Source: a virus. Taken from it: a DNA stretch of 47,333 nt. The stretch is taken from the IMG/VR virus record IMGVR_UViG_3300012926_000041, positions 1-47,333 of that record; one strand, written 5' to 3'. Of the stretch, positions 7,756-36,041 are shown piece after piece. The notes below the pieces were generated by a model. That model was not told the origin of the DNA, searched no databases, and worked only from the letters and a program-made list of their open reading frames with translations. The position numbers and the translations under genes were made by a program. The first letter of the stretch is position 1, and every line of letters begins with the position of its first letter.

Positions 7756-7789
7756 AGTACCGGGGGCAACACCACTTGCCCCCGGTACT
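7756..7789. terminator. Perfect 14-bp hairpin between SSB and recA-like genes
   Basis: Left arm 7756-7769 (AGTACCGGGGGCAA on the plus strand) pairs perfectly with 7776-7789, leaving a 6-nt loop. It lies 24 nt past the SSB stop and just before the recA-like start. No T-run follows on the minus strand, so it may be a partial terminator, an RNA-processing or stability element, rather than a classical intrinsic terminator. A similar perfect 14-bp hairpin follows the VWA gene at 27913-27960. Confidence 0.6.
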
Positions 7790-9679: not shown

Positions 9680-9866
9680 TGCTGATCTTCCTCAGAGTTA
9701 GATTCTTAACGTACCCAAATGCCCGTTTGAACTCGTGACAGTTCCTACAATTCCTACAATGCCCAAGATACTTTTTCCGGTCTTCCTTCCTGGTTAGATG
9801 GCACTGACGAACACAAAGACATTCGCAGTGAACTGTTCTTGGCCATTGACGAAAGTAGATTGTCAC
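9672..9866 (-). CDS. Small cysteine-rich protein
   Basis: 64 aa from a GTG that overlaps the TGA of the polymerase/UDG gene; it ends inside the start of the UvsY-like gene. Cysteines are arranged as HCECLCVRQCH and HCRNCRNCHEF, which can hold one or two zinc ions. The rest is basic. No family recognised. The double overlap with its neighbours supports a real coding region despite its size. Confidence 0.5.
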   Translation of the reverse strand: MTIYFRQWPRTVHCECLCVRQCHLTRKEDRKKYLGHCRNCRNCHEFKRAFGYVKNLTLRKISNG

Positions 9867-11239
9867 AGGAAATTCTGAATCGTCTCAGAGAAGTTTTTCA
9901 GTGCTTTTCGGAGGATTGGGAGATTTGCGTTTCGCTCGTAGAGGACGCTGGCAGGGTGGATACAGTACGTCACCCAGGCTTCCGCCCGGTTATTCCACTC
10001 TGTCTTCCCGCTCCACTCCGTGATGCCCTTATTGACCTTCCTAAAGTAATATAAGGCGGTATTCCCGGATGCTAAGATGAATTTCGGTTTGAATCTTCTT
10101 ATGGCCTCAGTTGCCCACGGGCACTTGGAGACATAGGTGATGTTAGGCAATTTATTATTTGGAGGACGGCAAGAGACGGAATTTGCGACAATAACGTCAC
10201 TTCGACTGATGCCAACTCGCTCAAGCTCTTGAAAGAGTAGCTTACCTGACTTCCCCACAAATCCTCTACCCTCCAAGTCCTCTTGCTCTCCAGGTGCTTC
10301 ACCAAGCACCATGACATTGATCTTCCCGATACTTGGAGGAACTGGAGCCTTACAGCCTTGGTGCAACGGGCACAAGGTACAAGCTTGTACTTTTTTCTTC
10401 CACTTCGCTTCATTGAAGCCATCCAGATCCAAGCCTCCAACAATTGGTATCTTGATTTTCCCCGGCTTGCCCGCTGCGATCTTGGACATCAGCTGAAAGT
10501 CCTCGATCATGACATTTTGTTTACGTGCAAACGGAACGTTCACCTTGAAGATAGCAACTTCGCCTTTGATATTTTCAATCGTCTCTTTCTTCCGTTTGTA
10601 AAGATCAGGCTTATAGATTCCCATCGTGAAGGTGGAACCATCGTCCAAGTTGCCATAGATGCCCCCTAGGGCATCTGCAGTCCCGGCCTTCCCGGTTCCG
10701 GCTTGTTTTGCCCGTTCCTTATAACCAAACTTCACGGATGTTGCCTGAGCGACAATGTTCCGCAGCTCCATATCTTTACAGCTATGGTCAATGTCTTTGA
10801 TCTTTTGGATCGGGATGGCATTCATGATCAGCTTACAAAGTCTACGGTATTCTCCGAAGATGTCGCTGCTGATCTTGAAGTTTAGAGATTCCTGCTGATC
10901 CGTTAGAACATCGTCCAGCTTCATCTCCCAGTCTTGCTCGATGTTCTTTTCTTTTTCCTTAATGATCTCAAGGATCTTCTTTGTTCCGAGAAGAGGATAC
11001 AGTTCATCAAAATGCATCTTCCAGAGCTTTGTATTGACTTCTCCAAGCAGCAGGTCAAAGCAACCACTGTTGATCAGCATCCGGACAACTCGGACATTGA
11101 CTTTGCGCCGATCTACTCGCTCAATGAACTGCTCTAGGCTCTTGAACTCGCCGCCGCATTTTTCTCGAGCTTCAAGGATTGCTCGTTGAGCAGTTTCGCC
11201 GCACATCTTGACCTGAGACAGACCAGCTCTTAATTTCAA
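9863..11239 (-). CDS. DNA polymerase III alpha C-terminal half fused to family-4 uracil-DNA glycosylase
   Basis: 458 aa from a TTG with GAGG upstream; an in-frame TAA lies five codons before. Residues 1-110 continue DnaE where the upstream ORF stops: helix-hairpin-helix (LSQVKMCGETAQRAILEARE, then a VDRRKVNVRVV segment). Residues about 180-275 look like the DnaE OB fold. From about 280 on is a family-4/5 UDG: Fe-S cysteines in CTLC, SCRPP and KCPW, the GEAPGEQED motif near 312-320, GRGFVG, and the late IHPASVLY motif. So the polymerase's DNA-binding end and a uracil-removing enzyme are one chain. A sigma-like gene separates it from the catalytic half. Confidence 0.85.
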   Translation of the reverse strand: MKLRAGLSQVKMCGETAQRAILEAREKCGGEFKSLEQFIERVDRRKVNVRVVRMLINSGCFDLLLGEVNTKLWKMHFDELYPLLGTKKILEIIKEKEKNIEQDWEMKLDDVLTDQQESLNFKISSDIFGEYRRLCKLIMNAIPIQKIKDIDHSCKDMELRNIVAQATSVKFGYKERAKQAGTGKAGTADALGGIYGNLDDGSTFTMGIYKPDLYKRKKETIENIKGEVAIFKVNVPFARKQNVMIEDFQLMSKIAAGKPGKIKIPIVGGLDLDGFNEAKWKKKVQACTLCPLHQGCKAPVPPSIGKINVMVLGEAPGEQEDLEGRGFVGKSGKLLFQELERVGISRSDVIVANSVSCRPPNNKLPNITYVSKCPWATEAIRRFKPKFILASGNTALYYFRKVNKGITEWSGKTEWNNRAEAWVTYCIHPASVLYERNANLPILRKALKNFSETIQNFL

Positions 11240-11246
11240 TGGATCC

Positions 11247-11849
11247 TCACTTTAGAACATCAGCAGTTGCCCTGCTGTTCCCAAACATCTTTTCCCTTAT
11301 CGTTCCTCTTGCCCGGTAAGCAAGCGCCCTGATCCTATTGGCAGTCCCACCGTACAGTGCAGCAATCTCTTCGTAAGGCTTCCCAAACATATAGTGTTGA
11401 ACGAAGGCCATTCTCTGGCCATACGTTAGCGTTTCAAGAACTTCAGCAAATTTATCTTTGAACTCATCATAAATGATTTGTTCAAGCCCTTCTCTCCCGT
11501 TTGCCAAAGACTCAAGCCGCTTAAAGACATCTCGCTGGCTTGAAGTATTCCGCTTTGTATCTCTATAATGATGTCGAAAGACATTTAAGAGGATTGAATA
11601 CGCCCAAGTCCTAGGATTTCTTGGTTTGAATTGGTTGTGGTAATGGAACGCCCTTGAAATTGCCTCATCAGTTATCTCCGTCGCAATAGACTCATTGTGA
11701 GTCCATCTGTAGGCCGTCCTTATGTACTTTGACCGATACTGAAAGTAGTCGTGCTCACTCGGAGACAGTCCAGCCGTCTCCGCTACGGTTGATATCCGGC
11801 GGTACAGCTTTGATGCCCATTCGTTTAGCTTCTTTAAGCGCAATGTCAA
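11247..11849 (-). CDS. ECF-like sigma-70 factor inserted between the two polymerase halves
   Basis: The ORF shows both sigma parts: region 2 (YRSKYIRTAYRWTHNE, TDEAISRAFHYHN, then a WAYSILLNVFRHHYRD helix) and region 4 (LETLTYGQRMAFVQHYMFGK, then PYEEIAALYGGTANRI as the helix-turn-helix). This is the layout of a small ECF sigma factor. The start is unclear: TTG at 11849 has AAGGA upstream, an in-frame CTG at 11768 would avoid most overlap with the polymerase, and ATGs exist near 11873-11894. Its stop TGA is eight bases before the UDG-fusion start. It could direct host RNA polymerase to phage promoters. Confidence 0.72.
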   Translation of the reverse strand: MTLRLKKLNEWASKLYRRISTVAETAGLSPSEHDYFQYRSKYIRTAYRWTHNESIATEITDEAISRAFHYHNQFKPRNPRTWAYSILLNVFRHHYRDTKRNTSSQRDVFKRLESLANGREGLEQIIYDEFKDKFAEVLETLTYGQRMAFVQHYMFGKPYEEIAALYGGTANRIRALAYRARGTIREKMFGNSRATADVLK

Positions 11850-14283
11850 TCTTTCCTTCGGCAGACGCAGCATCATCTCCATCGACAGATCCATAATTTA
11901 AGAATGCCGTGAAAAACTCAAGCGGATACTTGATCTTCAGCCAGATGGTGAGGTAACTTAGGATTGCATATTCAACTGCGTGACTCCTGTTGAACGCATA
12001 CACTCCGAAAAACTTTAGATTCTCAAAGAATTCCTCTGCCTCGTCATACTTCATCGTTCCCTTCTTGACACATCCCTTTGCGTACATCTTTTTGTACTCG
12101 CGCCACTTGTCCGTTCCTTCAGACTTTGAGATCACCTTCCTGACTTGATCCGTCGTCTTCCAAGGGATTCCGGCCATGTTGAATAGGAGGAACATAATCT
12201 GTTCCTGATAGATGATCTGGCCACAGGTTGATTCGGTAATCCCTCGATGAATGTCATTGTAATACTTGACCTTCTTTCGACCCAGCTTGATCTCCTGGTA
12301 CTCCTGAGTGATCCCGGCCTTCAAGCATCCCGGTCGCCATAGGGCAGAAGCATCTGCGAGCGTTTCAAAGTCAGATACATTCAAGTCCTTACAGTATTTC
12401 TGTAGGCCCTTAGAGCCAATCTGAAAGCCGCACACCGTGTTCCCGGCTGCGATCTCCTTGTAGACTTCTTCCTTATGAAGATCAATCTTATAGTAGTCAA
12501 TGTCTCTGCCATGCTTCTCTCGGATCAGCCGCTTGGCCTCACTGAGGACCGAGAGTGTTGACAGGCCAAGCACGTCAAGCTTCATCAGCCCCATCTGTTC
12601 AAGGTCTTCCTTATCCCAGTTGACGGTGAGTGTCCCCCTTCGGTTCACAAGATGGCAGTTCCCAGAGTACCTCAGGTCATTTTTGCTAACGACAAATCCT
12701 GCTGCATGAATGCCACAGGTCTTGATCTGTCCTTCAATTTTCGAAGCGTACTTAATGACATGAGGATACTTCTTATAGAAGCGTTTTGCCTCTTCAAAGA
12801 TCTCGACCGTATCCATGATGCTGAAAGAGGCTCGAGCATCCATCTCAGGCCGGATCAGAATGCATTTTGACATCGCATCTGCTTCTTGCCTTGGAACCTC
12901 AAAGAGCCTCGAGACGTCCCGGACAGCTTGCTTCCCGCGCATCATTCCAAAGGTTGAGACATGAGCAACGTTCCATTCTCCGTACTTCTCTTTAAGGTAT
13001 TTCTCAATGAGATGCCGCTTGCGATCTTCAAAGTCAATGTCAATGTCGGGCAGGTCTACTCGCCCTTCAGAGATGAATCGTTCGAAGATGAGATTGTGCT
13101 CGATGGGATCAACCTCAGTAATATGCAAAAGATAAGACACAAGGCTGCCACCAACAGACCCGCGACCGTGTCCCACAAGGATGTCGTTAGATTTAGCCCA
13201 GTTGATAACATCAGCAACAAGAAGCATATAACGTACAAAGCCACCATTGACCATCGCTTCGAGTTCATACGCTGCCCTCTCTCGATACTTTCTTGACGTC
13301 AATCCTCTTTTTTCAAGTTCCTGCTGGCACTTCTCGATCAAGTAAACCGTTTCGTCAATTCCTTTTTCGAGGACTCGAGGGAGTTCAACTGGAATTTTGT
13401 TCAGCTTGAACTGACACTTCTCCCCGATCTCCATCGTGTTTAGGATTGATTCTCTGGCCACTTCCCGATCAATCCCCATTAGCTTCAGAGACTCATACAT
13501 CTCCTGAGCATCCCGCATGTAGTTCAGATGTGTATCAAATTTCCAACGCTTCGGATTGTTCCAGGTCATTCCTCGCTGACCAATTCCAAGAATGACATCG
13601 TGGACTTTGTGGTCTTTCTCGCACAAGAAATGAATGTCATTTGTTGCAATCAGCTTGATGCCAAGCTCCTCAGCCGCAACAAGAGCTTGAGCGTTGATAT
13701 TCGTCTGATGGTCAAGATCGTGCAGCGGCATGATCTCGGCATAAAGATCTTGCTTGAAGGCTTCGTAATATTTTCCAAGGAGATCAATCCCGTTCTCCGC
13801 ATTCCAGAAGGGACTCGAGGCACATCCCGTCTGAATGATGACATCTCCGGCCCAGTCGTGCTCTAAGGGATATTCCATTGGCAGGAAGGCTCTCGAGGAC
13901 CAGCCTTTCTTGGAAATGCCATTAATGTTTGCATATCCTAGACCAACTAGCAGCTTCTTCAGGCCGCGCTCATTCTTGGCATGAGCAATGAGGTGAAGAT
14001 TTTTTTGCTTTAAATTGAAATCATCCTTCTTATCCCAGTGCTCCAGCATGTAAAGTTCAACTCCAAAGATTGGCTTGATCTTGTATTCCTTTTTCTCCTT
14101 GTCATAGCAAGCATTATTGAACTTGACGATTCCGTCCATGCTCCCATGATTTGTACTCGCAATATACCGATGCCCCTTTTCAATTGCGCCCTTAACAAGC
14201 TCCTTTGTCTTGACGGCCCCATCCAGGAGACTGAACTCATCGTGGACGTGCAAATTACAGAAATCTTTGTTCTTCAGCGTCAT
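11755..14283 (-). CDS. dnaE: DNA polymerase III alpha (DnaE), N-terminal catalytic half
   Basis: 842 aa. PHP domain first (HVHDEF at 12-17, TNHGSM, HLIAHAKN, TNDIHF), then the PolIII palm and fingers. GRGSVGGS and the two metal aspartates in LPDIDIDF lie near 410, and the third aspartate in MKLDVLGLSTL near 566. The protein stops at WTVSE, right after the family motif PPDIN, exactly where the helix-hairpin-helix part should follow. That part is found in the ORF at 9863-11239. All catalytic residues are present, so the half is probably active when joined by its partner. PHP has Asn for the usual Asp in T-D-H. Confidence 0.93.
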   Translation of the reverse strand: MTLKNKDFCNLHVHDEFSLLDGAVKTKELVKGAIEKGHRYIASTNHGSMDGIVKFNNACYDKEKKEYKIKPIFGVELYMLEHWDKKDDFNLKQKNLHLIAHAKNERGLKKLLVGLGYANINGISKKGWSSRAFLPMEYPLEHDWAGDVIIQTGCASSPFWNAENGIDLLGKYYEAFKQDLYAEIMPLHDLDHQTNINAQALVAAEELGIKLIATNDIHFLCEKDHKVHDVILGIGQRGMTWNNPKRWKFDTHLNYMRDAQEMYESLKLMGIDREVARESILNTMEIGEKCQFKLNKIPVELPRVLEKGIDETVYLIEKCQQELEKRGLTSRKYRERAAYELEAMVNGGFVRYMLLVADVINWAKSNDILVGHGRGSVGGSLVSYLLHITEVDPIEHNLIFERFISEGRVDLPDIDIDFEDRKRHLIEKYLKEKYGEWNVAHVSTFGMMRGKQAVRDVSRLFEVPRQEADAMSKCILIRPEMDARASFSIMDTVEIFEEAKRFYKKYPHVIKYASKIEGQIKTCGIHAAGFVVSKNDLRYSGNCHLVNRRGTLTVNWDKEDLEQMGLMKLDVLGLSTLSVLSEAKRLIREKHGRDIDYYKIDLHKEEVYKEIAAGNTVCGFQIGSKGLQKYCKDLNVSDFETLADASALWRPGCLKAGITQEYQEIKLGRKKVKYYNDIHRGITESTCGQIIYQEQIMFLLFNMAGIPWKTTDQVRKVISKSEGTDKWREYKKMYAKGCVKKGTMKYDEAEEFFENLKFFGVYAFNRSHAVEYAILSYLTIWLKIKYPLEFFTAFLNYGSVDGDDAASAEGKIDIALKEAKRMGIKAVPPDINRSGDGWTVSE

Positions 14284-17177: not shown

Positions 17178-17454
17178 TGCTCTTCTCCGATTCAATCAAA
17201 ATCATTCCGAGCAATCCGTAGCCCGTCAGATCAAGGTAGGTTTCTTCAACACTTTCTTTGACTCTTGGCTTGACGCCTTTCCAGACAAGCTCCTTCAAGC
17301 GGACATACTTTTTGTGTACGTCTGCAAAGTTTCCCTTCAAGCCAAGATCCTGCCATCCATCGTTCCCGTAGTCATGAGATTTTTCCTCGATGATACGAAG
17401 AATTTTCTTGGCCATTACTTTCGCAAGTCTTCGGCGTTCTTTAATTGTAATCAT
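17086..17454 (-). CDS. NMAD1 / DUF1599 nucleotide-modification-associated protein
   Basis: 122 aa. The core KSHDYGNDGWQDLGLKGNFA, with KKYVRLKEL, ESVEETYLDLTGYGLLGMIL, follows the DUF1599 pattern (K-x-x-x-YG, K-x-x-R, E-S-x-x-D-x-x-D-L-x-x-Y). This family is named Nucleotide modification associated domain 1. The Glu/Asp pairs resemble MazG-type metal sites. Its last 30 residues overlap the glycosyltransferase gene and look unstructured. Start overlaps the SDR stop (ATGA). Confidence 0.65.
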   Translation of the reverse strand: MITIKERRRLAKVMAKKILRIIEEKSHDYGNDGWQDLGLKGNFADVHKKYVRLKELVWKGVKPRVKESVEETYLDLTGYGLLGMILIESEKSNVQKRAASREDGKGLRRAHQHLPALRKRNS

Positions 17455-18116
17455 CGTTGATTGTTCTCGATTTCAAAACAATGGCCAGACATCTGATCAG
17501 CCTGACCTGAAAGACAGAATTTCACGACGCCAATGATGGACTCAACTGAAACCATTTTACCTGATGGAAAGCTTTTTGCGATTCCATCAACAATTTCCTC
17601 TTGAGACATTCTCTTCATGATTCCTGTTGTCCTCACTGTCTTCTCAAGCATCGGTGTGTAAGCGACCGTCCCTGGAGCAATACACCAGATCTTCAAGAAA
17701 CAGTCTCTTAATTTTGCCTCTTCATAAGCAAGATGCCTAACAAAGGAAACAATCCCTGCCTTCGCTGCCCCATAGACTGAATGTCCATTCAAAGCCTTCC
17801 GGTGAGCCATCGAGCTTATCAGGATGATCCGCTTATTTAAGGTAGGATAGGCGGAAATGAAACTTGAAATAAGCTTCAATGGAACGGTGAGATTTTGAGC
17901 AATCTCCTTTTCGATCTCTGTTGAAGTCTTGTCTTGAAAAGCCGCTATGTCAAGTCCTCCAATTGAGCAAGTCAATGAAACGTTGCCAGTCTTTCCCACA
18001 TACTCCGGGAAGTATTCATTTCCTTTTCGAAGGATGCTGCCATCAATTGAATTAGCAATCTGCCAGCCAATATTTTTGGTATGCTGATTTGCGCCTGCAA
18101 CAAAGTTCCTCTTCAT
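17451..18116 (-). CDS. Short-chain dehydrogenase/reductase (SDR), first of a tandem pair
   Basis: 221 aa. SDR active-site motif VYGAAK (Y115, K119) and a serine strand ILISSMAH (S101/S102). The N-terminal dinucleotide-binding segment is unusual (AGANQHTKNIGW) and lacks a clean glycine motif, so cofactor use may be altered. Start overlaps the other SDR's stop by four bases. The pair probably acts on one pathway, perhaps with one as a dedicated binding subunit. Confidence 0.75.
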   Translation of the reverse strand: MKRNFVAGANQHTKNIGWQIANSIDGSILRKGNEYFPEYVGKTGNVSLTCSIGGLDIAAFQDKTSTEIEKEIAQNLTVPLKLISSFISAYPTLNKRIILISSMAHRKALNGHSVYGAAKAGIVSFVRHLAYEEAKLRDCFLKIWCIAPGTVAYTPMLEKTVRTTGIMKRMSQEEIVDGIAKSFPSGKMVSVESIIGVVKFCLSGQADQMSGHCFEIENNQR

Positions 18117-18817
18117 GCTTCAGCTCCGTCAATCTTCAGACAGTTCCCCGTCGCAAAGTGCCCCTTATCCGCAATGAATGAAATCCATTCTGCCGCCTGC
18201 TCTGCGGTGAATGCTTCGGGCCATTTCTGTCGGTAGGCCAGTTCCTTATACGTCTTCTTGAACTGGACCTGACTCTGACCCGTCATTGGAGTCCCTCTCA
18301 CGATGCCGAAGTCTACCTGAACTACCGCGATTCTCTTGGAAGCGAGATCCCGAGCAAGATGCTTCGTCAGTCCAGACAACGCCATCTTTGAAGCCCCGTA
18401 GACAAACGATCCTGATCTCGGGACGCTCGTTGTATTGGAGCCGACCAACACGACAATGGACCGCTTCTTGTTACAGACCCTTGTGAACTTATCAATGCAC
18501 GTCAGCGCCCCTTTGGCATTGACATTCATCGTATCGTTCCAAGCTTCATAGATCGAGCCTGTCTCGGAATCTGAATTGTAGTCGATGGTCTTCGGGATAT
18601 TGATGCCCGCCGTGTAGATTAGGGCATCATAGTCCCCTGTACGCTTCAACATCATTTCCATGACGGAGTAATACTGAGTGACATCGACATGGTGCCGATT
18701 TGCAACTTGCTCCCTGTCGAACCACTCGACATGCCAGCCCAGCGAGATCAACAGATCTCGCGTGTGCCAGCCAATAGATCCCTTGCGACAGCCTACAACA
18801 ATCGCATTCTTCCTCAC
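18113..18817 (-). CDS. Short-chain dehydrogenase/reductase (SDR), second of a tandem pair
   Basis: 234 aa. GCRKGSIGW (9-17) is the cofactor glycine turn, LIYTAGIN the NAG-like motif, VGSNTT with S127, and VYGASK with Y140 and K144 as the catalytic pair. A complete classical SDR. NAD(P)-dependent oxidation/reduction of a hydroxyl, ketone or sugar-like substrate is expected. It overlaps both neighbours by four bases, so it is in one transcript with the VOC protein and the second SDR. Confidence 0.82.
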   Translation of the reverse strand: MRKNAIVVGCRKGSIGWHTRDLLISLGWHVEWFDREQVANRHHVDVTQYYSVMEMMLKRTGDYDALIYTAGINIPKTIDYNSDSETGSIYEAWNDTMNVNAKGALTCIDKFTRVCNKKRSIVVLVGSNTTSVPRSGSFVYGASKMALSGLTKHLARDLASKRIAVVQVDFGIVRGTPMTGQSQVQFKKTYKELAYRQKWPEAFTAEQAAEWISFIADKGHFATGNCLKIDGAEA

Positions 18818-19263
18818 CGCTTCATCCTCTCAATGATTTTAAGCCGATACCCATAAATAACCTTGGTGTCAAAATAGATATACTTCCAACCCCGCTCGCC
18901 CTTCCAAAGCTCTCCCTCGAGCAGCTTCATGTTGGCCATATAAGGATTCAGTTCAAGGAATTCCTTGCACGATTGCACATGCGTTCCAAGATGGCTGATC
19001 TCCCCTTCCTCGAGTTGATGATGGAAGGAATCTCCGCTGACGTACTGAAGGAACTCAACTTCCATCCCGTTCACGTAACAGTAGGCAAGCTTCAGATTCC
19101 ATTCTGCGGGCTTCCCCTGATAGTGACCCTTTGCACTGTGGTCAAGGTCAACAACAATTTTCTTTGGATCAAGACCAAAGTTCATCGAGAACTGGACAGC
19201 CTTGTCTACTGAATTCTTTGAAGCAAGACAGATCTGATCAAACTTGACCGCGAAGCTTAACAT
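18814..19263 (-). CDS. VOC-superfamily (glyoxalase/epimerase-like) protein
   Basis: 149 aa from the ATG at 19263, preceded by GGAGGAGAAAA and overlapping the upstream stop. KFDQICLASKNSVDKAVQFS is like the first beta-alpha unit of VOC proteins. GMEVEFLQYVSGDSFHH with ISHLGTHV recalls the metal-binding E and H of methylmalonyl-CoA epimerase-type members. These catalyse epimerisation or related metal-assisted enolate chemistry. Fits a small-molecule pathway with SDRs next door. Confidence 0.55.
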   Translation of the reverse strand: MLSFAVKFDQICLASKNSVDKAVQFSMNFGLDPKKIVVDLDHSAKGHYQGKPAEWNLKLAYCYVNGMEVEFLQYVSGDSFHHQLEEGEISHLGTHVQSCKEFLELNPYMANMKLLEGELWKGERGWKYIYFDTKVIYGYRLKIIERMKR

Positions 19264-20216
19264 TTTTCTCCTCCATTTGTAAACCAGTTTAGGTTCCACA
19301 TGATTTCTCTGAACTCCTTGAATCTTGTAATCGGTAGCCCCTCCGTGCTTCCTTGGTTGTACTCCGTCTCACGGAGATAGACATGAATGTTTTTCGAAGC
19401 AATCTTGATGGCATTTACAAGTGTGTCCTCAACGACAAACTTTGCAAAGGAGTAGTCTTTGATGATCCGATCTTCCTTGTTCTCGTCAAACAGAATGGCG
19501 TTGTACGGGAAGCCATACCGCTTCAGCCATCCAATCGTGTCGGCCATGATTCGCCGGTACTTCTTGTAGGGCCGAGCCGTCATCAGAAGAATGTAAAAGT
19601 TGTAATGTCTTAGATAGTTCATGTACTCCAGGGAGCCTTTGATGACATCAAGCCCCTGAGACTCAACGCCTGTCTCGCGGAAAATATGCTTCAGCTCATA
19701 CGCTCTCTCATGCCCAATGTACTTCCCGACATGAGCGTAGAATTCTCCTCCCGTTAGCGGAGGAATTTCTATTCCAGTCTTCTCTTTGATGAATCCAAAG
19801 ATGCCCTTGATGTAGTCTGCGAGGACGCCATCGATGTCAACAACAGCGCATCCTTCATACTTGCTAGGGTCCCATGGATTTGAGAACTCTTGAATATACT
19901 TCTGCTCAACCACTTCTGTTTTCCGTTCCCATTCCTGAAGGAACTCCTCAAGGGTCATGTCCCAGATCAGAGCAATGCCATTCCAATACTTGAAGATATC
20001 TATGATCTCTTCTTTGACATTTTCTCGAATGATCCTGGTGTTCTCTCGACGATGAGTTTTCCAGCTTAGATTTTTTAGTAGCTCCATCAACTCATCTTGA
20101 ACATACAGAACAAAGTCTTTTGTTAAGGCTTCGCGGTCTGCTTGCGTGAGGTGTCCAAGGTGATGGAAGTTGTTATTGAACTGTGCCTGACGTTCCCAAA
20201 TCTCTCTCAAGTCCAC
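19257..20216 (-). CDS. Fusion: all-alpha NTP pyrophosphatase (dUTPase-like) + HAD phosphatase
   Basis: 319 aa starting at a GTG with GGGAGAG upstream. Residues 1-110 are helical with YVQDELMELLKNLSWK and NVKEEIIDIFKYWNG, the E-x-x-E and E-E-x-x-D metal sites of dimeric dUTPase/MazG folds. From residue 120 a HAD domain begins: VVDIDGVLAD (D127, D129), LLMTARPY near 211-218, and FDENKEDRI with VEDTLVNA as the later motifs, like deoxynucleotidase relatives. One chain could take a dNTP to dNMP and on to the nucleoside. Confidence 0.7.
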   Translation of the reverse strand: MDLREIWERQAQFNNNFHHLGHLTQADREALTKDFVLYVQDELMELLKNLSWKTHRRENTRIIRENVKEEIIDIFKYWNGIALIWDMTLEEFLQEWERKTEVVEQKYIQEFSNPWDPSKYEGCAVVDIDGVLADYIKGIFGFIKEKTGIEIPPLTGGEFYAHVGKYIGHERAYELKHIFRETGVESQGLDVIKGSLEYMNYLRHYNFYILLMTARPYKKYRRIMADTIGWLKRYGFPYNAILFDENKEDRIIKDYSFAKFVVEDTLVNAIKIASKNIHVYLRETEYNQGSTEGLPITRFKEFREIMWNLNWFTNGGEKC

Positions 20217-20245: not shown

Positions 20246-21148
20246 CTACGGTAGGTCTTTCCCTAGGGATGCCGATTCCGCCCAGACATGACTCGTTAGT
20301 CCTTTTGGGCGCCATTCCCCATAACGGCCATAGAGCAACACTCCATGGCGCTTTAGATAGAGCTTCATTCGCTCTAGGTCATTCCGGTCCTTATCGTCAT
20401 GAATCCAAATCTTACCGGGGTAGAGCTTTTGCCGTCTTCCAAAGCTTTCCGGGCCGTCCCCTATCTCCTGAGCATGCTCTTCAGTGTACTGGCCAACATA
20501 GCCGGGCTGAATTGAAGTCACCGAGCGATACCAAGGATGGCATGAGCTGGCGCAGTACTTTACAGACATGACTCCGTATTCAGCCGAGTCTGTGGAGTTG
20601 CTAAGAATATAGATGGGCTTCGAACAGAATCGAGGAACGCTGATGAAGTGCCCAATTGGTGTGTCTTCGCAGTGGGCAACTGCTGAAAGGATCGGTAGGG
20701 GAATCGTCGAGAGGAGGGTTGAATATTTCCAGCATCGGCCTGATGAGTCATGGATAAGCTTTGATTCAATGTCAACGTGATAGACTTCTGATTTTATAAC
20801 TTCTACTCCATCTGCTAATATTTCTCTTGAATACGCCCAGCCGTTCCCGGTAACAATCTGGCCCTTAATACCAAATCGTGCAAAGCTGCTTGTATCAAGA
20901 TTTGCCTTTGGATCTCCGTACACCTTCGCGGCATACTTTTCAACCGTCCCTCCTTCACAAGCATCTGATACAATCTTGAATGATTCTTTCCTTGTAAAAG
21001 GATTTTCCTCATGCGAGTAAAAAAAGCCTTGATCATTCCCGCTCGACATTGGGCCACCTTTGTCGAGAATAAGATATCTTCGTTTTGCCTCTTTCATGCG
21101 CTGAGCAAGAAGAAGGCCGCTGATGCCGGCGCCCATGATAATGATCAT
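20246..21148 (-). CDS. FAD/NAD(P)-binding oxidoreductase, amine-oxidase or UDP-galactopyranose-mutase-like
   Basis: 300 aa. IIMGAGISGLLLAQRM at the N-terminus is the dinucleotide-binding GxGxxG, followed by an acidic end of strand 2 (YLILDKGG). The C-terminal GVLLYGRYGEWRPKGLT with later ASLGKDLP resembles the FAD-contacting end of UGM and related flavoproteins. The length is a bit short for either family. Possible role in sugar or modified-nucleotide chemistry along with the SDR pair. Specific substrate unknown. Confidence 0.65.
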   Translation of the reverse strand: MIIIMGAGISGLLLAQRMKEAKRRYLILDKGGPMSSGNDQGFFYSHEENPFTRKESFKIVSDACEGGTVEKYAAKVYGDPKANLDTSSFARFGIKGQIVTGNGWAYSREILADGVEVIKSEVYHVDIESKLIHDSSGRCWKYSTLLSTIPLPILSAVAHCEDTPIGHFISVPRFCSKPIYILSNSTDSAEYGVMSVKYCASSCHPWYRSVTSIQPGYVGQYTEEHAQEIGDGPESFGRRQKLYPGKIWIHDDKDRNDLERMKLYLKRHGVLLYGRYGEWRPKGLTSHVWAESASLGKDLP

Positions 21149-21955: not shown

Positions 21956-22435
21956 CTACTGTGAATGGCATCCAGGCGCGTGATAGCCGACCGGGCCATC
22001 ACAATCACACTTCCGCTTCTTGCAGCACACCGGGCAGTCCAGATCCCCAAGGGCGTCCTTAATGTGCTTCAGCCCACCGCAGGCGATGCAGGGTTGATCG
22101 TTCCGCTTTTCGGTCATTGCTTCTTCGGGATACTTAGCCTGAAGTTCTTCCACCTTGCGACAGGGGATGCACTTCCCGACGTGGTACTCGATCCGCTCTC
22201 CACGCCATGTCAGATGGTGGTCCGAATCCAAGAGCTTCAGGACGCGGCGGTATTCGTCAATCTGAAGATCCGTCTTTGCCTTTTCGCTGGAAACATGTAT
22301 CTCGCCACTGCTTATTTTATCCCAAATAGCTTTCAACTCGCAATAGCCTTTCGGCCAAGTAAGTTTGTGGTACTGCATATCGCGCACAGCGTGGGCAATA
22401 GCGTCCCGCATATCCGGAGTAATCGTAATTGTCAT
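21956..22435 (-). CDS. Hypothetical protein with DnaJ-like zinc-finger end
   Basis: 159 aa. The N-terminal 80 residues are helical. The C-terminal half has CIPCRKV, CIACGGLKHI, CPVCCKKRKCDCDG and GYHAPGCH: DnaJ-like CxxCxG pairs plus a Cys/His cluster. As in the 201-722 protein, no J domain is present. Start overlaps the stop of a small membrane-type ORF upstream. Function unknown. Confidence 0.55.
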   Translation of the reverse strand: MTITITPDMRDAIAHAVRDMQYHKLTWPKGYCELKAIWDKISSGEIHVSSEKAKTDLQIDEYRRVLKLLDSDHHLTWRGERIEYHVGKCIPCRKVEELQAKYPEEAMTEKRNDQPCIACGGLKHIKDALGDLDCPVCCKKRKCDCDGPVGYHAPGCHSQ

Positions 22436-22542
22436 GTTGCATGATCTCCCGCCTCAGCCCAGATCCAACCGCCAAGCACACACGCTAGAATCAAGACTGA
22501 AAAGGCAATGTCCATATGGCTTAACAGGTGAGTAGAGGGCAT
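22432..22542 (-). CDS. Small single-pass membrane peptide (36 aa)
   Basis: From ATG 22542 (or ATG 22515, giving 27 aa) to a TGA overlapping the next start. The middle is a hydrophobic helix, MDIAFSVLILACVLGGWIW, with a short polar end. No strong ribosome site. It lies directly downstream of the structured RNA at 22560-22671, so its expression could be under that element. Function unknown; small size lowers certainty. Confidence 0.4.
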   Translation of the reverse strand: MPSTHLLSHMDIAFSVLILACVLGGWIWAEAGDHAT

Positions 22543-22559
22543 TTCATCATTGACTCTAG

Positions 22560-22671
22560 ATCTATCAAGAGGGTGCACCAGACTCATCTGTTTCGGAACG
22601 CAGACGAGTAATTTATGAGTCCTTTCACAGGGCGCACCCCCTTGATAGATGCCGTCCCTTTCAGGAACGGC
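22560..22671 (-). ncRNA. Structured RNA element with long helix and alternative inner pairings
   Basis: Outer helix: 22560-22579 with 22631-22650, 20 pairs; both plus-strand A/C mismatches become G-U pairs on the minus strand. Inside, 22582-22590 pairs with 22601-22609, or instead 22580-22587 with 22615-22622; the two cannot form together. Just 5', 22651-22658 pairs with 22664-22671 around a 5-nt loop, again with a G-U pair only on the minus strand. The wobble pattern argues for a functional minus-strand RNA. It is downstream of the 22694 gene and upstream of the small membrane ORF, so a cis-regulatory switch, processing site or small RNA is possible. Confidence 0.6.
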
Positions 22672-22693
22672 ACCTAGGACTACAGAGAGAGGG

Positions 22694-23206
22694 TTAGATC
22701 ATTTTCTTGTACTCGCCCTCACCCGCGTACACAATGAGGCCGAGTTTGGTGAAGATCCGGAGCATGATCGGGATCTTTGCATCTGGATTGAACTTGATGT
22801 GCGTTCCGGCCTTCTTTGCCTGCTTACAGAAAACAGTCGTCTTTGATGCAAGCTCAGTGGCCGTTAACTTCTTTCCGCATTCCTCGCGCAGAACCGAATA
22901 AACGGCCCAGCCAGCAGATCCAACACGAAGGCTGCAGTTCTCCTTGTCCTTGAGATAACGCTTCGAAAGAGGACGTGCCTTCTCAGCAGTCTCCTCTTTC
23001 TTTTCCTTGGGCTGCTTCACAGCCTTCTTCTCTTTCGTTTTCGTCGCCATTGTTTCTTCCTTGACTGCGTTTCGTTTTCCAGCACGCCGACAGCGTCTCG
23101 CAACGAGACAGACCTGACATTCGGGTGCCGTTTTCAGGTAATACTTGCCAAAGCAATCGCCTTCAAACTCCGCTTTTGCCTTGGTCGGTAGAGGAGGGTT
23201 TGTCAT
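22694..23206 (-). CDS. Cysteine-rich phage protein with lysine-rich linker
   Basis: 170 aa, ATG preceded by GAGGAGGACG. N-terminal motif CFGKYYLKTAPECQVCLVAR with a further RRC gives four cysteines, a pattern I have seen in small phage zinc proteins. A Lys/Glu-rich linker (residues 55-80) leads to an 80-residue C-terminal domain that looks like a winged helix (VYSVLREECGKKLTATELAS and MLRIFTKLGLIVYAG). Possible DNA-binding regulator; unproven. Confidence 0.55.
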   Translation of the reverse strand: MTNPPLPTKAKAEFEGDCFGKYYLKTAPECQVCLVARRCRRAGKRNAVKEETMATKTKEKKAVKQPKEKKEETAEKARPLSKRYLKDKENCSLRVGSAGWAVYSVLREECGKKLTATELASKTTVFCKQAKKAGTHIKFNPDAKIPIMLRIFTKLGLIVYAGEGEYKKMI

Positions 23207-23240: not shown

Positions 23241-23747
23241 TCATAGGTATTCTCTCAATAAATCCTCCTTCTTCTTTAGGTACTGATCATTGATCCGGCT
23301 CGAGACTTCGACCAGACGCTTACAACGCTCCCGTCCCAGTCTCCCTGTTAGAGCAGAGAGCTTTGCGCGGAAGAAGTCGAGTGGAAGTAAGGGACTCCCT
23401 GCAAACGAAGCAGGCCCATCCTGCTCTTGGGAAGCTGGCCCAAGCATCGCTTCAAGCCGGGCCACCCTCCGTTCTGCCTTGATGAGCTTCATCCTGAAGA
23501 TATCCTTGATCCTCCGGCGAAGACTCTTGCGGAACAATCGAATCAGGTCAATCCCTCTGGCAGAGGGATATTCTTCCAGAACCCTCCAAAGAATAATAGA
23601 TGCCTCCTGACAGAGATCCTCTGAATCATAGAGGACCGATCTCCAGGCATGACGCTGTGCAACCGATTTGATTAACAGGGACATCATCGCCAGCTGAAGA
23701 TCATAATCAGCCCGATCCCCTAGCCCCGTTCTCTCTCTCGCTTCCAT
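23241..23747 (-). CDS. Sigma-70 region-2-like protein
   Basis: 168 aa. LLIKSVAQRHAWRSVLYDSE, then DLCQEASIILWRVLEEYP and LFRKSLRRRIKDIFRMK match the helices of sigma region 2, including D-L-x-Q-E. After a Pro/Gly linker the C-terminal part is helical but lacks an obvious region 4. It overlaps the upstream gene by 41 nt. Third sigma-like protein of the window; it could be a phage middle or late sigma or a region-2-only regulator. Confidence 0.5.
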   Translation of the reverse strand: MEARERTGLGDRADYDLQLAMMSLLIKSVAQRHAWRSVLYDSEDLCQEASIILWRVLEEYPSARGIDLIRLFRKSLRRRIKDIFRMKLIKAERRVARLEAMLGPASQEQDGPASFAGSPLLPLDFFRAKLSALTGRLGRERCKRLVEVSSRINDQYLKKKEDLLREYL

Positions 23748-27912: not shown

Positions 27913-27960
27913 TTCCCTGCCTGGAGAGCCGGCAACCCAGAAGCTTCTCCAGGCAGGGAA
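27913..27960. terminator. Perfect 14-bp hairpin after the VWA gene
   Basis: 27913-27926 pairs perfectly with 27947-27960 (TTCCCTGCCTGGAG arm), loop 20 nt. It follows the VWA stop by about ten bases. No T-run follows on the minus strand. Like the hairpin at 7756-7789, it could end transcription weakly, protect the mRNA end, or be an RNase III-type site. Confidence 0.6.
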
Positions 27961-35955: not shown

Positions 35956-36041
35956 ATCGGATGATGCTACTGTAGTTCCCTTATATTCTCTTAATTACTC
36001 TTCTACTCTTATTACTAGTAATACTAGTAGCATCGTCCGAT
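35956..36041. other. Long inverted repeat with AT-rich loop upstream of the helicase gene
   Basis: Arms 35956-35971 and 36026-36041 match at 15 of 16 pairs (sixteenth is a wobble on the plus strand). The 54-nt loop is pyrimidine-rich on the plus strand and has the nested repeat TTACTAGTAATACTAGTAG. One arm is in the end of the upstream gene. May be an operator, an origin-like element or an mRNA hairpin before dnaB. Confidence 0.5.

Follow-up and report, generated by a model that had tools for sequence, protein, structure and literature searches.

The stretch of DNA analysed here, referred to as the window, is the whole of IMG/VR virus record IMGVR_UViG_3300012926_000041, a linear fragment of 47,333 bases. 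Its minus strand carries a phage replication block that encodes a split DnaE, UvsX, SbcCD, a single-strand binding protein, a primase, DnaB and a helicase, and within this block an RNA element is sited between two genes. The upstream gene (22694..23206, minus strand) encodes a small Cys-rich protein of unknown family, and the downstream gene (21956..22435, minus strand) encodes a Cys-rich, zinc-ribbon-like protein that was not found in relatives. A small membrane ORF occupies 22432-22587, with shorter starts at 22542 and 22515; its longest reading begins inside the RNA structure, and none of its starts is preceded by a Shine-Dalgarno sequence, which many neighbouring genes possess.

Several other features of the block were recorded in the window and in contigs of related phages, labelled L087 to L091. 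Three of these phages carry DnaE as two genes, divided at the same point (window 9863-14283, minus strand; L087:6360-10273; L088:7160-11244), and the halves measure 842 and 458 aa in the window. L089 has it unsplit, at 1218 aa. The gap between the halves holds an ORF for an ECF-type sigma factor in the window (approximately 11240-11762, with Sigma70_r2 and r4_2), a short unknown ORF in L088 and nothing in L087, where the ORFs overlap. A second sigma-like gene (23241-23747, minus strand), whose Sigma70_r2 match falls just below the cut-off, lies one gene upstream of the RNA element and has a homologue near DnaE in L089. Two tandem short-chain dehydrogenase genes and a glyoxalase-like gene are also present in the replication block (17451-19299, minus strand).

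Predicted architecture and stability

Read 5′ to 3′ on the minus strand, the modelled element consists of a pyrimidine tract, a first hairpin (hairpin I) and an abutting long irregular hairpin, the latter built in order from a 17-20 bp helix, an asymmetric CUGUGA internal loop, an inner helix B and an apical region conserved in sequence. The pyrimidine-rich spacer (CCCUCUCUCU..., 22672..22693) stands directly 3′ of the upstream gene's stop codon, and its motif is absent from the other intergenic sites on the minus strand. Hairpin I (22651..22671, 8-9 bp) is the separate hairpin described in an earlier reading of this DNA from sequence alone, and it abuts the long helix without a spacer. That reading had also proposed a 20-bp helix between 22560-22579 and 22631-22650 that would be complete only in a minus-strand transcript, and this is borne out: all 20 pairs form on that strand, two of them G-U, and the same two are A-C mismatches on the plus strand. 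The 5′ arm (22631..22650) and the 3′ arm (22560..22579), both backed by the inverted repeat, the fold and the alignment with L088, are listed as 90% complementary among inverted repeats and form the longest such pair at a distance of at most 150 nt, barring one self-overlapping palindrome. Inside the long helix, the internal loop CUGUGAAA (22623..22630) faces 0-1 nt on the opposite side. Helix B, of 8 bp, joins 22615..22622 to 22580..22587, and the apical region of this fold (22588..22614) contains UCUGC and CCGA stretches in common with L088. Visual inspection showed a further stem closing off the two hairpins (CUAG/CUAG in the window, GGGUU/AACCC in L088), which was left out of the model because it is missing from the optimum fold of L088.

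The minus-strand RNA of 151 nt folds at -66.1 kcal/mol (z -7.35), a value that none of 200 dinucleotide shuffles equalled, and the plus strand of the same 151 nt gives -54.5 kcal/mol (z -4.66). Among 9444 windows of 120 nt, taken from both strands of the whole record, the element ranks first for stability once GC content is taken into account. One whole-record shuffle in 100 produced a 20-bp helix spanning at most 140 nt, so that the helix alone corresponds to p of about 0.01; it is conservation in a relative that settles the reality of the element.

Conservation in a diverged relative

A query with the DnaE alignment returned relatives that were too distant, and a query with the single DnaE protein returned two contigs, L087 and L088, at 82-83% identity. 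L088 (contig IMGVR_UViG_3300047160_002644), whose DnaE is 82% identical to that of the window, starts partway through the gene homologous to the upstream gene, with the last 17 codons 71% identical. Located 3′ of the stop codon of this homologue are a hairpin at about 83-100 and then a 17-bp helix (101-117/168-184) enclosing CUGUGA...UCUGG; in both phages the element directly follows the homologous upstream gene in the same orientation. No stretch of the L088 sequence is more stable, and the fold z is -7.8 to -7.95. A covariance model built from the window sequence alone with the B fold (model R2) gave L088:79-193 as its best non-self match (E 1.9e-5, with 67 kb searched and filters off), and the corresponding model of the alternative inner fold A (R1) found the L088 element at E 7.6e-4.

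The sequence-only reading had proposed looking for covariation in homologues, and this yielded compensatory changes, in one relative. In the fitted alignment of the window with L088, 71 of 71 cells are paired and 17 pairs have changed on both sides, comprising nine in the outer helix, five of the nine pairs of hairpin I and three in helix B; when the 3′ partners are slid as a control, compensatory pairs drop to 0-3. Since the alignment was fitted to the structure, the count leans towards structure. A segment test independent of the structure-fitted alignment found conserved sequence in the spacer (18 identities, p<0.001; 22672..22693 against L088:57-82, the alignment beating all 1000 shuffles) and in the inner region (36 identities, p 0.003), where the CUGUGA of the internal loop is identical in the two phages. 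In the helix arms and in hairpin I, similarity does not exceed that of shuffles (p 0.16-0.40), yet pairing is retained. All nine non-Watson-Crick helix pairs of the window and L088 are sense-strand G-U wobbles, with none A-C; the outer helices and hairpin I account for five.

What these observations establish is a predicted fold on a defined strand, conserved in one relative through compensatory changes. They also bear on the reading of the locus as a DNA-level inverted repeat, whether a MITE or a recombination or replication site, rather than an RNA. A long inverted repeat in an intergenic gap is what such a reading would lead one to expect, but every imperfection is a G-U on the sense strand, the L088 arms remain paired although unlike those of the window in sequence, each record holds a single copy with no target duplication visible at its ends, and the arm sequence is absent elsewhere in IMG/VR. 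We consider a DNA-level repeat to be scarcely credible. A MITE in particular was rejected, there being no conserved terminal repeats in several copies and the arms not being conserved in sequence. Because L088 keeps the same pairing with different stem sequences together with the CUGUGA core, the structured RNA is judged genuine, and we hold with high confidence that a real conserved RNA element, unmatched in Rfam, lies on the minus strand.

Only two members are known, the window and L088. L087 has no element in the 198 nt before the gene that it shares, and is too short to reach the place; L089-L091, the rest of the clade in IMG/VR, gave no match. The L089 record encodes, between a sigma-like gene and DnaE, a protein weakly like the upstream gene product (28% over 39 residues, E 0.006), and the model search did not find the element there. 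Only the window and L088 were recovered by model R3 over 27 related records, and models R1 and R3 run over the records of other relatives gave no further match. A pattern for the conserved core found 53 stretches in IMG/VR, of which only that in L088 has an enclosing helix, a result that serves as a useful negative control; a pattern for the arms found their sequence nowhere else in IMG/VR. The DNA of the element had no match in phages and plasmids, and nothing was found by searching IMG/VR with the neighbouring proteins or genome contigs with the UvsX alignment. At the gathering threshold of Rfam 15 no family matches the window, none matches L088 even at E 10, and the sole match near the window element is a poor chance match beside it (E 1.1). 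A tRNA reading was considered and rejected. We regard the element as very likely real: a structured phage RNA of a familiar general type that had not been listed before. One diverged relative has turned a structure call in a single genome into a covariation-backed RNA element, and has thereby supplied a concrete candidate for control after transcription in phages that have no close cultivated member.

Alternative inner helices

In the window, the inner part of the long hairpin can also form a helix A of 9 bp, in which 22601..22609 pairs with 22582..22590. The two mutually exclusive inner helices noticed from the sequence alone are therefore both present, with a 3′ strand common to both. They are unbalanced, since A is favoured in isolation by 3.3-4.9 kcal/mol (3.3 when B takes its best apical fold, 4.9 when it takes the consensus one), and the predicted pairing probabilities in the window are about 0.99 for A and 0.006 for B. 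The predicted optimum differs between the two phages: A is optimal in the window only, whereas the optimum fold of L088 has a 10-bp stem of the B type and no comparable counterpart of A. The models R1 and R2 differ only modestly, and R2 also gives a better score on the sequence from which it was built, so that the fold of L088 itself provides most of the case for B.

A two-state riboswitch or attenuator built on these helices had been the regulatory interpretation first offered, the RNA being taken as a leader of the small membrane ORF and the zinc protein gene. Mutual exclusivity of A and B in the window fits such a device. Its working, however, would call for near-isoenergetic, conserved, exclusive states, which are found in neither the window nor L088, where the energies lean in opposite directions. 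It would also call for an expression platform: no intrinsic terminator or U tract follows the element on the minus strand, and sequestration of a ribosome site was likewise not seen, the small ORF having no Shine-Dalgarno sequence. Nor is there a conserved downstream gene. The small membrane ORF and the four small genes of the window between 21185 and 22435, the zinc protein gene among them, are missing in L088, where the element is kept and the next gene is a homologue of window 20246-21148. A switch is therefore very unlikely. Of the original proposal, the minus-strand RNA element stands, upheld by compensatory changes, sense-strand wobbles and a shared orientation and upstream gene, and the two-state leader does not find support.

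With helix A, the window RNA combines a long helix with a three-way junction, an arrangement which we take to resemble the phi29 packaging RNA (Rfam Phage_pRNA). A packaging RNA of the phi29 type was rejected, as the junction, with its two hairpin loops, appears only in the predicted optimum of the window and is not formed in L088; the element further differs from that RNA in having no Rfam match even at E 10 and no packaging genes seen nearby.

Possible modes of action

We tentatively favour, at somewhat less than even probability, a putative protein-bound intercistronic RNA that acts in cis on its own transcript, because what stays constant about the position of the element is the gene that precedes it, not the gene that follows, and because switch or terminator machinery is absent. 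The long helices would serve as a scaffold presenting the conserved loops, which a putative binding protein of host or phage origin may recognize, and the resulting RNA-protein complex might act in cis just past the upstream gene in the polycistronic transcript, as an element for processing or stability or for antitermination. The cis reading overlaps RNase III processing and put-like antitermination as outcomes, and the probabilities that we attach to the several readings sum to slightly more than one. Against it stands the fact that a free non-coding RNA would have the same sequence appearance.

Such a stand-alone phage RNA, of about 110-130 nt and working in trans, is the principal competing reading; it would either bind a protein or act as a base-pairing small RNA whose C/U-rich tract is the seed against purine-rich ribosome sites. 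The persistence of the element while the downstream gene changes, and the conservation of the apical core and the pyrimidine tract, agree with this possibility, and the purine-rich AGAGAGAG just before dnaB is complementary to the tract. A free RNA is nonetheless rather unlikely in our estimation, given that no promoter-like site was found on the minus strand near the 5′ end (a search confined to the sigma-70 consensus) and no intrinsic terminator at the 3′ end.

Known phage RNAs offer parallels to the element. Like RNase III sites of T7 such as R1.1, the element is an irregular long hairpin between genes of a phage polycistronic mRNA (PMC8708148), and it might be a site at which RNase III cuts that mRNA, and nothing more. 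It offers a long double-stranded intercistronic stem with an internal loop on the sense strand, and its helix of 17-20 bp exceeds the minimum of 12 bp reported for R1.1 derivatives (PMC8708148); the element has the long stem expected of such a site, and cleavage itself is putative. RNase III sites, however, lack a strong consensus (PMC8708148), whereas here the internal loop and the apical region are conserved in sequence and the stems are not. Unlike R1.1, the element has a conserved loop sequence, covarying stems and an extra abutting hairpin, and the model search of T7 gave no match stronger than E 0.57. A simple RNase III site is improbable.

The put RNAs of HK022 offer a second analogy, in which the element would bind RNA polymerase directly, as put does at the zinc-binding domain of the beta′ subunit, and suppress downstream termination. 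HK022 put RNA is about 70 nt long and folds into two adjacent stem-loops with bulges (PMC9378689). The element resembles putL and putR as a phage RNA with an adjacent pair of stem-loops and a bulged region on the sense strand of a nascent transcript (PMC9378689), hairpin I abutting the long hairpin in both the window and L088, and it lies ahead of a long block of genes on the same strand. It is, however, longer than put, at about 112-125 nt (about 112 without the spacer), model R3 gave no match better than E 2 in the HK022 genome, and no early promoter was identified nearby; we regard put-like action as quite improbable. Modification of elongation by a putatively protein-recognized RNA hairpin would also recall the leader hairpin bound by LoaP, a small hairpin of the UNCG type (PMC12691694). 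Unlike it, the element has no UNCG-type loop, and no LoaP gene was identified among the annotated genes.

On a bolder and unlikely reading, the window and L088 would be the founding pair of a new class of phage RNA. Its pyrimidine tract, abutting hairpin and long bulged hairpin, with CUGUGA at the core, would recruit a specific partner, be it a phage protein, RNA polymerase or a nuclease, and so govern how the replication operon is expressed in a phage group that has no cultivated members. Binding of polymerase or a nuclease by the conserved loop would, if real, enlarge the small set of RNA handles known from phages.

Other structures were seen in the same records. The dnaB leader (35956-36041, minus strand) forms a 16-bp helix whose arms are 54 nt apart, just before the purine-rich ribosome site AGAGAGAG; unlike the main element, this helix does not favour the gene strand, because its sole imperfection is a G-T on the plus strand. 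Two perfect hairpins lack U tracts: one of 15 bp (27913-27960) behind a CobT-like gene, and one of 14 bp (7756-7789) in the gap separating the genes for SSB and UvsX. A tRNA-like cloverleaf ending in CCA, uncalled by ARAGORN, is found at L090:3215-3290 beside a called tRNA-Pro, and the intergenic stretch L088:1286-1480 is dense in palindromes of the CCCCTAGGGG type, with strong structure on both strands.
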